64,000 nt of DNA from Faecalibacter bovis (GTDB lineage Bacteria > Bacteroidota > Bacteroidia > Flavobacteriales > Weeksellaceae): the NCBI RefSeq assembly GCF_017948305.1, contig NZ_CP072842.1, positions 2,672,501 to 2,736,500 of the forward strand, read 5' to 3'. Shown one piece after another: positions 18,948 to 58,383 of this stretch. The notes under the pieces were generated by a model. It was not told the origin of the DNA, ran no database searches, and saw only the letters and a list, made by a program, of their open reading frames with translations. Made by a program: the position numbers and the translations under genes. Each line of letters begins with the position of its first letter. Within the stretch, counting starts at the first letter, position 1.

Positions 18948-19021
18948 GTGATTGTAGCTCAGTTGGTTAGAGCGCCGGATTGTGGTTCCGGAGGTCGTGG
19001 GTTCGAGACCCATCATTCACC
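18948..19021 (+). tRNA. tRNA-His(GTG), copy 1 of 5
   Basis: A 74-nt cloverleaf. Anticodon stem CCGGA/TCCGG has loop TTGTGGT (anticodon GTG), T arm GTGGG-TTCGAGA-CCCAT, and acceptor GTGATTG/CATTCAC with one T-T mismatch. A G precedes position 1, opposite C73, the His-specific identity pair. CCA is not encoded. Confidence 0.97.
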
Positions 19022-19071
19022 CTAAATAAACTTTTAGAATTTAAGTTTCAAAATCAAAATTCAATAACTTG

Positions 19072-19145
19072 GTGATTGTAGCTCAGTTGGTTAGAGCGCC
19101 GGATTGTGGTTCCGGAGGTCGTGGGTTCGAGACCCATCATTCACC
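19072..19145 (+). tRNA. tRNA-His(GTG), copy 2 of 5
   Basis: Identical in sequence to copy 1, 124 nt downstream of it, with the extra 5' G and no encoded CCA. Confidence 0.97.
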
Positions 19146-19194
19146 CTAAACAAACTTTAGAATTTAAGTTTTAAAATCAAAATTCAATAACTTG

Positions 19195-19268
19195 GTGATT
19201 GTAGCTCAGTTGGTTAGAGCGCCGGATTGTGGTTCCGGAGGTCGTGGGTTCGAGACCCATCATTCACC
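19195..19268 (+). tRNA. tRNA-His(GTG), copy 3 of 5
   Basis: Identical to copy 1, 123 nt after copy 2. Confidence 0.97.
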
Positions 19269-19317
19269 CTAAACAAACTTTAGAATTTAAGTTTTAAAAT
19301 CAAAATTCATTAACTTG

Positions 19318-19391
19318 GTGATTGTAGCTCAGTTGGTTAGAGCGCCGGATTGTGGTTCCGGAGGTCGTGGGTTCGAGACCCATCATTCACC
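19318..19391 (+). tRNA. tRNA-His(GTG), copy 4 of 5
   Basis: Identical to copy 1, 123 nt after copy 3. Confidence 0.97.
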
Positions 19392-19440
19392 CTAAACAAA
19401 CTTTAGAATTTAAGTTTCAAAATCAAAATTCATTAACTTG

Positions 19441-19514
19441 GTGATTGTAGCTCAGTTGGTTAGAGCGCCGGATTGTGGTTCCGGAGGTCGTGGGTTCGAG
19501 ACCCATCATTCACC
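19441..19514 (+). tRNA. tRNA-His(GTG), copy 5 of 5
   Basis: Identical to copy 1. The last copy, followed 6 nt later by a strong terminator. Confidence 0.97.
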
Positions 19515-19520
19515 CTATTA

Positions 19521-43560: not shown

Positions 43561-43591
43561 AAAAAAGCCTCGCAATCGCGAGGCTTTTTTT
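43561..43591. terminator. Bidirectional terminator
   Basis: AAAAAAGCCTCGC pairs with GCGAGGCTTTTTT between convergent genes. Confidence 0.92.
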
Positions 43592-44384
43592 ATGCTACAT
43601 TATTAATATATTCTTTTTCTAAAATTCCGTCTACCACTTTGTCTACTTCTTCTATATTTTGTTTTAAATAAATTGTATCCTCAATCTCATCTAACTCATA
43701 AAACTTTACATTTTTCTTCACTTCATTAAGTTTTGTATAAAATCTTCTCAATTCTTTTTTATTGTAATTAGAATCATTTTTCACATAAATCACGTGGATA
43801 TTAGATTGAATTAATTGTGCAACTTCCAATACATGATGTCTGTTTCGGCTAATATCAATGCTATAAAAGATAGATTTAATATATTCGTTTTTCGCAATAG
43901 GCTCTTTCACTAACCAATCTTCAGTTACTGGTGAACTAGCAATTGGGATTAAGTTTGAAACACGTTTAGGAAAAATAGTTGTCATTTCCCAAGAAATTCC
44001 GCCACCTAAATCGGCACCAATTACTGCGAATAATTCTTCAATTTCTAACTCGAATAAAGTTAACCAAAACAATACAGCAACATCTCTACCTGTAATTTTA
44101 TCGAATGGTAAATGGTCATATTTAATTTCTTTGGCAACTTCATTTCCAGGAATATCAATACAAATTACTGTATATTCAGCCAAATCAATCGCTTTGTTTT
44201 GCCCAATTACTCCATCCCAATGAAACATACAATCCGAATCACCGTTTAACGAGTGATTGATCAAAATTACAGGTGCCGTTCCGATTGGTAAACCATACTG
44301 ACGATAAGTTACCGATACATTATTTACAATTGTATTATCCTCTAATGGCCATACTGGGATTGTGATCTGATTTAATGTTTGCAT
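43590..44384 (-). CDS. Alpha/beta-hydrolase-fold protein related to homoserine acetyltransferase, degenerate active site
   Basis: 264 residues. The overall pattern matches the MetX-like hydrolases: VTYRQYGLPIGTAPVILINH near residue 25, ICIDIPGNE, and the nucleophile elbow region FAVIGADLGGGISWEM. The elbow reads G-A-D-L-G-G, so Asp replaces the Ser of GxSxGG, and the GHD segment carrying the catalytic His of MetX is not seen near the C-terminus. It may be a pseudo-enzyme or use Asp as nucleophile. The stop of a 13-codon ORF overlaps its start as TAATG. A promoter, a 19-codon ORF and a terminator precede it, so expression is likely controlled by attenuation. Confidence 0.65.
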   Translation of the reverse strand: MQTLNQITIPVWPLEDNTIVNNVSVTYRQYGLPIGTAPVILINHSLNGDSDCMFHWDGVIGQNKAIDLAEYTVICIDIPGNEVAKEIKYDHLPFDKITGRDVAVLFWLTLFELEIEELFAVIGADLGGGISWEMTTIFPKRVSNLIPIASSPVTEDWLVKEPIAKNEYIKSIFYSIDISRNRHHVLEVAQLIQSNIHVIYVKNDSNYNKKELRRFYTKLNEVKKNVKFYELDEIEDTIYLKQNIEEVDKVVDGILEKEYINNVA

Positions 44385-44425
44385 TATTTTAATTTTAAGG
44401 TTGTTTCACTTTGATTTTTATTCAT
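44384..44425 (-). CDS. Tiny ORF coupled to the alpha/beta-hydrolase gene
   Basis: MNKNQSETTLKLK, 13 residues. Its ATG directly follows the T-run of the attenuator, and its TAA overlaps the next ATG by one base (TAATG). It may help load ribosomes on the main gene only when the terminator is read through. It could equally be chance. Confidence 0.35.
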   Translation of the reverse strand: MNKNQSETTLKLK

Positions 44426-44459
44426 AAAAAATCCCCGTTAGATAAACTCTGACGGGGAT
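44426..44459 (-). terminator. Leader terminator (attenuator) before the alpha/beta-hydrolase gene
   Basis: On the minus strand ATCCCCGT, AGA/TCT inner pairs, ACGGGGAT and then TTTTTT. It lies between the promoter and the gene, 42 nt ahead of the start codon, so it must end most transcripts unless overridden. The segment ATATCC at its 5' side (44456-44461) is complementary to GGATAT inside the leader ORF (44503-44508), a possible antiterminator pairing. Confidence 0.75.
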
Positions 44460-44489
44460 ATAAAATATCATAAAAAATAAATTTCAAAT

Positions 44490-44549
44490 TTATATATATG
44501 AGATATCCACGCCTGGATTAATAATCCACACCTGCTTACAAATTGTCAT
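44490..44549 (-). CDS. Candidate leader peptide, 19 residues
   Basis: MTICKQVWIINPGVDISYI between the promoter and the attenuator. The ATG is about 35-40 nt after the predicted transcription start. The codons for TGGATTATTAATCCA form a perfect hairpin, and GTGGATATC can pair with the 5' side of the terminator. These are features of ribosome-controlled attenuation, but no run of one amino acid marks a regulating codon. Coding has not been shown. Confidence 0.45.
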   Translation of the reverse strand: MTICKQVWIINPGVDISYI

Positions 44550-44590
44550 ATATAACGAATTAAATTTCACTTTTTCTATACTTTCTTTTT

Positions 44591-44622
44591 CAAATGTAGG
44601 TATAATATTTTTAAAAGTTCAA
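44591..44622 (-). promoter_or_regulatory. Promoter of the attenuated leader
   Basis: On the minus strand TTG (44620-44622), 21 nt, TACATTTG (44591-44598). It gives a leader of about 200 nt before the alpha/beta-hydrolase start. Bases 44623-44811 hold nothing recognisable. Confidence 0.7.
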
Positions 44623-44811
44623 GCAAATTCGGTTTTTAAACGAATTTTTAACATTAAAAATCAAGAAAATATACCTTTTTTAAACTTTTTTATCCTTTAA
44701 AATTGAACTTATTCAGAACAATATTCTTTGATCAATCCTATATCAATAGAAATTATTTCTAAATACTTCAAAAAAATAGAACAATATATGTTAATTAGAT
44801 TTCTTAAAATT

Positions 44812-44868: not shown

Positions 44869-45840
44869 TTATTTATTCTTTAAAATTTCGTGGAAAACGG
44901 TTTGAGCAGAATAGATACGATTTGTAGCTTCATCGATTACAATTGAAACATCAGAATCTAAAACTTCGTCAGAAACAACAACATTACGACGAACTGGTAA
45001 ACAATGCATGAATTTTCCGTTGTTCGTTAAATTCATTTTTTCCATTGTCACTTGCCAATCTTTATCCCCTTCATTTGCTTGACCGTAGTTTTCGTAAGAA
45101 GACCAGTTTTTCGCATAAACAAAATCTGCATCTTTTAATGCTTCATCTTGGTCATACATAATTGTTGCACCTTCTGTAAATTTTGGATCCAATTCTAAAC
45201 CTTTTGGGTGAACAACTGTAAAATCTACCCAATCTACTTTAGAAAACCATTCTGCAAACGAATTTGGAACAGCTTGTGGTAAACGGCGCGGATGTGGAGC
45301 CCAAGTCATAACAACTTTTACTTTTTTCTCTGGTTTTACACCTGGTGTATAGCCTGTTTTTTCTGCAATTGTAATTAAATCTGCAAAAGATTGTAAAGGG
45401 TGTAAAGTTGCACTTTCTAATGAAACGACAGGAACTGATGATAATGATTTAACTTTATTAAACATCAATTCTTGGTAATCTTCGTCACGATCAACTAATT
45501 TTGGGAATGTACGAACACCTAAAACATCACAATAAGCACTCATAACTTGAATTGCTTCTGTAATATGCTCTTGAGAATCTCCATCCATCACGGTTCCATC
45601 TCCCATTTCTAATGTCCAAGAATCTGCACCTGCATTTAATACCCAAGCGTTAGCACCTAAGTTATAAGCCGCTTTGATAGAACTTAAACGTGTACGTAAA
45701 CTTGGATTAAAGAAAATTAAACCGACAGTTTTGTTTTTACCTACTTCTTGTTGAGCGAATGGATTAGCTTTAATTTCTAAGGCTGTTTTTAATAATTCGT
45801 CGATGTTTTCTACATCATTAACTGACGTGAATTGTTTCAT
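44869..45840 (-). CDS. N-acetyl- or N-succinyl-ornithine carbamoyltransferase
   Basis: 323 residues. Carbamoyl-phosphate loop FFNPSLRTRLS (ordinary ornithine enzymes have STRTR), then VMTWAPHPRRLPQAVPNSFAEW and FMHCLPVRRN, a set found only in the acyl-ornithine branch. This branch replaces ornithine carbamoyltransferase in arginine synthesis of Bacteroidota and xanthomonads. Position 90 in MDGDSQEH decides the acyl group in known enzymes: Pro in the succinyl-using enzyme, Glu in the acetyl-using one. Here it is Gln, so the choice is open. No other arginine gene is nearby. A -7 element lies 33 nt before the start. Confidence 0.9.
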   Translation of the reverse strand: MKQFTSVNDVENIDELLKTALEIKANPFAQQEVGKNKTVGLIFFNPSLRTRLSSIKAAYNLGANAWVLNAGADSWTLEMGDGTVMDGDSQEHITEAIQVMSAYCDVLGVRTFPKLVDRDEDYQELMFNKVKSLSSVPVVSLESATLHPLQSFADLITIAEKTGYTPGVKPEKKVKVVMTWAPHPRRLPQAVPNSFAEWFSKVDWVDFTVVHPKGLELDPKFTEGATIMYDQDEALKDADFVYAKNWSSYENYGQANEGDKDWQVTMEKMNLTNNGKFMHCLPVRRNVVVSDEVLDSDVSIVIDEATNRIYSAQTVFHEILKNK

Positions 45841-58168: not shown

Positions 58169-58270
58169 TGAAATATATCATTTAAAGCCGTGTTTACATT
58201 AGTTTAGAACGATTCTTATTAAGATATTAAATTAATTTTAAATCTTCACGAAAAAAAACATGATTTCTTA

Positions 58271-58299
58271 TTGTATATATATAAATTTTAGTAAATTTG
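58271..58299 (+). promoter_or_regulatory. Promoter of the leader/small RNA before the ECF-sigma operon
   Basis: TTG (58271-58273), 18-nt spacer, TAAATTTG (58292-58299), a near-perfect Bacteroidota promoter. Confidence 0.7.
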
Positions 58300-58303
58300 T
58301 CTC

Positions 58304-58383
58304 TGATAAAGCCGTAGCTTTTTCATAGGTTTAAGTTAGTTAGGAAAATCTCCACGTCTTCGGATGTGGAGATTATTTTTTTT
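58304..58383 (+). ncRNA. Candidate leader RNA or small RNA, about 80 nt
   Basis: Between the strong promoter and the sigma gene: a small hairpin AAAGC-CGTA-GCTTT (58308-58321), an unpaired stretch, and a 12-bp stem (AATCTCCACGTC with GATGTGGAGATT) closed by a TTCG tetraloop and followed by eight T (58347-58383). The stem is a textbook terminator 48 nt before the sigma start. It is either the end of an independent small RNA or an attenuator of the operon. Confidence 0.6.

Follow-up and report, generated by a model that had tools for sequence, protein, structure and literature searches.

We consider it reasonably likely that the leader upstream of a MetX-derived hydrolase gene in Faecalibacter bovis acts as a ribosome-mediated transcription attenuator, in which the charging of Met and/or Cys tRNA governs expression of a MetX homologue that is catalytically dead. 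The leader lies in the window, the whole 64,000-nt stretch of DNA that was analysed, whose source replicon is a single 2.84-Mb contig. The layout of ribosome-mediated attenuation had been noted in the original prediction and is supported by the comparison with relatives, in which the leader ORF, the alternative pairing and the terminator were kept in 17 genomes of two genera. The leader peptides and those of related metX operons suggest Met and/or Cys supply as the most likely signal.

Organization and conservation of the leader

The promoter, the 19-codon ORF with its internal hairpin, the complementarity of GGATAT (44508-44503) to ATATCC (44461-44456) and the terminator of the original prediction were all found again on the minus strand (Table 1). 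The leader has its own promoter downstream of the N-acetylornithine carbamoyltransferase gene, and a similar carbamoyltransferase-type protein is encoded upstream of the hydrolase in a second genus (g28) too. The -7 box was typed by comparison with TAnnTTTG, which we take to be the Bacteroidota consensus. This motif or a close form occupies the same place at all 14 loci of the window genus and is present in the second genus as well.

Table 1. Features of the leader and its neighbours in window coordinates
Feature	Position	Strand	Remarks
N-acetylornithine carbamoyltransferase gene	44869-45840	-	same strand as hydrolase, upstream of leader
Upstream promoter box, TTG	44620-44627	-	
-7 promoter box, TACATTTG	44598-44591	-	Bacteroidota TAnnTTTG type
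Leader ORF, MKFNSLYMTICKQVWIINPGVDISYI	44570-44490	-	probable GTG start, 26 codons; candidate control codons Met8 and Cys11
19-codon ORF of the original prediction	ATG 44549-44547, TAA 44492-44490	-	its ATG is codon 8 counted from GTG
P1 helix	44554-44547 with 44500-44493	-	encloses P2 and antiterminator strand
P2 hairpin, GTGTGGATTATTAATCCAGGC	44511-44531	-	within ORF; originally noted hairpin TGGATTATTAATCCA is 44528-44514
Antiterminator strand, GCG-T-GGATAT	44512-44503	-	in 3' part of ORF; partner 44461-44452
Intrinsic terminator, ATCCCCGTcAGA..TCTaACGGGGAT and T run	44459-44426	-	-15.7 kcal/mol; 5' arm is the antiterminator partner
MetX-derived alpha/beta-hydrolase gene, putative pseudoenzyme	43590-44384	-	264 aa; candidate controlled gene

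The window leader folded 4.45 standard deviations below dinucleotide shuffles. The window contains 247 ORFs of 18-40 codons that begin with ATG. For five of them, including the leader ORF, a hairpin of -12 kcal/mol or stronger with a T run lies no more than 120 nt downstream. Elsewhere in the window, another short ORF at 58260-58328 (+) precedes a -17.3 kcal/mol hairpin with a T run, and five near-identical tandem tRNA-His(GTG) genes lie in a 123-base repeat at 18948-19515 (+).

All 14 genus genomes encode a hydrolase orthologue, and at 67-89% identity to the window protein within the genus the gene is under selection. A family search at E 1e-30 gave matches in 19 of 246 genomes (14 of the genus, three of g28 and two with longer MetX proteins), and an order search at E 1e-35 gave matches in 2 of 296, namely the source genome and one with a longer MetX. 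Promoter, leader ORF, antiterminator and terminator precede the hydrolase gene in all 14 genus genomes and in all three of g28. The genus leaders can be aligned through promoter, ORF, linker and terminator; the g28 peptides (MRIFICHSMYSTRCMISNWDHGGSSMWSDKKKVES, MRFFICHSMYSTGRMISKWDHGGSLMWSDRKEIES and MRSNITISNKQNQWMRIRTVCGCLDR) follow the same plan with different sequences. Conservation of the ORF in relatives had been set beforehand as the test of the idea, and in 17 of 17 genomes a frame of 25-35 codons, starting soon after the promoter, was found to be open from ATG or GTG to a stop. A conserved terminator, for which a test had also been proposed, was present in 14 of 14 genus leaders and after each of the three g28 peptides.

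The ATG at 44549 was probably misplaced as the start of this frame. In the window species the frame is open further upstream to GTG 44570, and a start codon, preceded by an A-rich stretch, stands at the equivalent position in 17 of 17 genomes (ATG in 14 and GTG in three); the ORF therefore probably has 26 codons and begins at this GTG. At locus L012, ACG replaces the originally chosen ATG, and the upstream ATG and the open frame are retained. Over codons 2-15 in 12 species, variable columns were distributed 5/2/8 among the three codon positions. Codons 8-15 read M(S/T)I(C/R)KQVW in all but two of the 14 genus members, and most of the changes there fall on third codon positions. A test for a conserved peptide had been proposed, and MSI.KQVW is such a core in those 12 members, but it is absent from the second genus, and L012 and L014 depart from it. 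Species differ by 4 nt in the length of the P2 loop and hence in the frame downstream of it, so that in the last third of the ORF the bases are conserved and the peptide is not. The 13-codon ORF reported between leader and hydrolase is present in the window species but, among the 17 genomes, nowhere else, as judged with a few start patterns and in agreement with the genus alignment. Between ORF and terminator, ATTTTTTA (44471-44478, minus strand) is kept in 13 of 14 genus members; the attenuator model needs no such element.

RNA structure and modelled ribosome positions

In the 14-sequence alignment, P1, P2 and the terminator together had 94.6% of 350 cells paired, compared with at most 50.8% in slid versions, and 9 of 25 pairs were changed on both sides, a level reached in 0 of 500 shuffles. 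The two halves of P1 were paired in 95.7% and 100% of cells, with 3 of 8 pairs changed on both sides; the corresponding values for the terminator helix were 92.9% and 4 of 10. In the window species, all nine pairs between GCG-u-GGATAT and AUAUCC-c-CGU of the terminator 5' arm form. Counting gaps as misses, this antiterminator was paired in 32 of 36 cells in the four GG species and in 84 of 90 in the ten GGG species, values that lean towards the structure since the pairs were hand-picked in two registers. One A-U pair is changed to U-A in L011 and L013.

Antiterminator and terminator are mutually exclusive in this leader, although in the window species alone the alternative is weak relative to shuffles: its pairing gain with the terminator 5' arm was ordinary, 145 of 200 shuffles being as good. 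The gain was likewise ordinary in L003 (147 of 200), middling in most genomes and rare in L012, L014, L031 and L032 (matched by 0, 4, 4 and 6 of 200 shuffles, respectively). Leaders of several genus members pair with the terminator 5' arm even as naked RNA, so P1 is no clean lock.

A ribosome covering 12 nt ahead of the codon was modelled on each leader. A stall at the first internal codon for Met or Cys left the terminator 5' arm paired in 17 of 17 genomes, with 4-12 pairs and energies of -15.1 to -24.8 kcal/mol; stalls at later Met or Cys codons left it paired only in part. With the ribosome at the stop codon, the remaining RNA retained 0 to -0.8 kcal/mol in the 17 genomes. In the model, a ribosome at the stop codon thus masks the antiterminator strand and an early-stalled one does not, in 17 of 17 leaders.

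Transcripts would begin a few bases downstream of 44591, and translation would initiate at GTG 44570. With Met and Cys tRNAs charged, the ribosome would reach the stop codon at 44492-44490 and cover GGATAT, upon which the terminator at 44459-44426 would form and transcription would stop. A stall at codons 8-11 would break P1 and leave GCG-u-GGATAT free to pair with AUAUCC-c-CGU, and RNA polymerase would read on into the hydrolase gene. The anatomy, conservation and covariation of the leader, the Met/Cys runs in relatives and the loss of catalytic residues are observed directly; that the ORF is translated, that the ribosome stalls on it, which amino acid is read and in which direction the switch responds are inferred from sequence.

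Internal Met and Cys codons were both found in 17 of 17 leader peptides. Six partly related representatives of the 17 (L001, L008, L012, L014, L031 and L032) were compared with shuffles in tests picked after the relatives were seen: all six contained both residues (shuffles averaged 2.2, and none of 2000 reached six), and p was 0.018 for Met and 0.0055 for Met plus Cys, in lineages that are related. Total Cys in these representatives was not above shuffles (8 vs 5.2, p 0.12). Among the 247 short ORFs of the window, 42 contain both Met and Cys. In 12 of 14 genus members, Cys is encoded at either codon 5 or codon 11 but not at both, leaving aside a Met codon inserted in two species; seven of the 12 have Cys5 with Arg11 and five have Cys11 with another codon 5.

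The MetX-derived protein and the leaders of related operons

The controlled protein had been described as a degenerate hydrolase, a description that fits, since judged by its residues it is a predicted MetX pseudoenzyme without catalytic Ser and His. It matches Pfam Abhydrolase_1, and its best NCBIfam matches are MetX models at scores far below the cut-offs (66.3 bits for TIGR01392, compared with a curated 500); intact MetX of the genus also falls below the TIGR01392 cut-off. Among solved structures it is best matched by deacetylcephalosporin C and homoserine acetyltransferases, along its N-terminal 160 residues. Compared with six metX-family proteins, all 17 orthologues have GADLGG (once GVDLGG), with Asp in place of the Ser of GGSLGG, and both the His of GHDxF and about 70 residues of the lid are missing; we take the Ser of GxSxGG and the His of GHDxF to be the catalytic residues of MetX and the missing part to be its lid domain. 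A structure model of the hydrolase built from three sequences had a mean pLDDT of 38.7 and was discarded.

Intact MetX is encoded in 12 of 14 genus genomes; the copy in G008 (L027) is split by stops, and in G006 the pseudoenzyme alone was detected. No true MetX was detected at E 1e-5 in two of the three g28 genomes, and the pseudoenzyme is kept in all three. Regulation of MetX through pairing with the pseudoenzyme was considered and set aside, since these two genus genomes and two g28 genomes without intact MetX, like all the others, keep the pseudoenzyme gene.

The closest full-length relative found of the window hydrolase is the MetX of O-acetylhomoserine sulfhydrylase-metX operons in the family. 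These operons have the leader peptides MTVRNNNNMCCMRNDSAGDAVV, MNSKFNKMQMMMCGNAQGLLLV, MTFKTCKTGKMMMCMCMRPPELCLKSASE, MKNRFMQILPMMMCYKTQR and MNHKTQNIMMSMMMQTPFVAHG; Met leader peptides were found at all five close family loci with readable upstream DNA, four of them with Cys, and a sixth locus (L076), cut at a contig end, was left out. In the order, a search of 246 genomes yielded 32 matches; 29 sulfhydrylase-metX loci (L102-L130) were examined, and 17 had a leader with at least three internal Met. These leaders mostly mix Met and Cys, for example, MNLIAKNMCCMMSETSAEFAIV and MKNNNKMCCMMMMCMCAPP, and their stop codons mostly lie 25-36 nt before the terminator, compared with 33 nt in the window leader. 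The other 12 loci had no leader with at least three internal Met; one of them, L119, has a weak leader comparable to that of the window (MKSTSFCMWMTKQKSFWSLTIT). L066, the one locus with such a Met/Cys leader that was scanned, gave no Rfam match.

The sulfhydrylase-metX pair of the window genus itself has a different upstream ORF, MKYNS.KHSFGHGVLL..IYNC.NSKIRMC.., at seven of nine loci, with a diverged form at an eighth (together L077, L083, L084, L087, L089, L090, L093 and L098). This ORF lies 155-163 nt before the sulfhydrylase gene and ends in Met/Cys codons. In one genus member (G009), a SAM riboswitch (RF00162, 67.8 bits) is located upstream of the pair at L070, 1341-1451 (+).

The original prediction had left the signal open because the peptide contains no run of one amino acid. 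There is indeed no run, nor a cluster of several Met/Cys codons, the window peptide having one internal Met (Met8) and one Cys (Cys11), but Met and Cys occur in every leader and the metX leaders of relatives carry Met or Met/Cys runs. The window leader shares with the Flavobacteriales sulfhydrylase-metX leaders a short Met/Cys ORF, the spacing of its stop codon before a strong terminator, and an operon of the metX family. Those leaders have runs (MMM, MCCMM), often two tandem attenuators and active enzymes, whereas the window locus has single codons, one attenuator and a presumably inactive protein. Because it has no Met/Cys cluster, the window leader reads as a diverged relative rather than a member of that group.

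In the trp, his and leu attenuators of E. coli, a leader peptide is combined with a mutually exclusive antiterminator and terminator, and the stop codon lies where a ribosome terminating on it covers the antiterminator. The window leader shares this plan and differs in having no codon run and in controlling one non-biosynthetic relative. The S-box SAM riboswitch (RF00162) also controls methionine genes, as at L070, but binds SAM directly, and no match to it was found at the window leader. In Flavobacterium psychrophilum, leader-peptide attenuation was proposed upstream of amino-acid operons from transcript maps (PMC9723704); the mechanism is the same as that considered here, and the accessible part of that report names no peptide or metX gene. 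The portions of the literature covered by our search contained no description of a Met/Cys-reading leader-peptide family in Flavobacteriales.

Alternative readings and implications

An attenuator responding to another amino acid, with Trp as the best candidate, or to general translation speed is unlikely, though it deserves some weight. Trp occurs in 15 of 17 peptides, as one or two codons in most species, its total in the representatives was 6 compared with 3.1 in shuffles (p 0.08), and by the arithmetic of a 12-nt footprint a ribosome that paused on Trp15 in the window peptide would likewise leave the antiterminator strand free; Trp is, however, absent from the L012 and L014 peptides, and the relatives of the operon use Met and Cys runs. 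Somewhat less probable still is a metabolite-binding riboswitch in which P1 and P2 form the aptamer and the ORF is incidental. P1 and P2 do covary, and the genus leaders contain nearly invariant stretches, CGATTYGCAAACAGG among them. This reading is difficult to reconcile with a start codon and open frame in every genome and with helix and junction sequences that differ in the second genus. Moreover, no Rfam family matched the window leader, in line with the original failure to recognize a named riboswitch, and sub-threshold Rfam matches at the window were dismissed as chance. Each of the 14 genus genomes gave a single strong match to a covariance model, at the hydrolase gene, and in a search of 395 genomes of the order the window's own match alone stood far above the rest; the many weak matches of the order-wide search came from a model (R1) that contained the terminator, and no wider spread is claimed from them.

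Arrest of the ribosome by the nascent peptide YMSI(C/R)KQVW, alone or with a ligand, would account for the conserved motif and its third-position changes in 12 of 14 genus members. We regard it as quite improbable, given that the g28 peptides are unrelated, that L012 and L014 break the motif and that the motif bases also belong to P1 and P2. A plain terminator with a chance ORF, giving constitutive partial termination and no switch, would agree with the weakness of the antiterminator against shuffles in the window species; set against the conserved start codon, the open frame and a covarying alternative helix across the genus, it is hardly credible.

Attenuators of this type are old, and what is unusual here is the link to the Met/Cys-rich leaders of related operons and the inactive target. 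A Met/Cys signal is testable, for an attenuator that had seemed to have none. More tentatively, it is possible that Flavobacteriales have a family of leaders reading Met and Cys for sulfhydrylase-metX operons, to which the window leader points, and that in two genera a metX-derived gene without catalytic residues and lid has kept such an attenuator, its product being made only at Met/Cys shortage, even where active MetX is absent. The regulation of a conserved MetX pseudoenzyme hints at a role in sulphur starvation.
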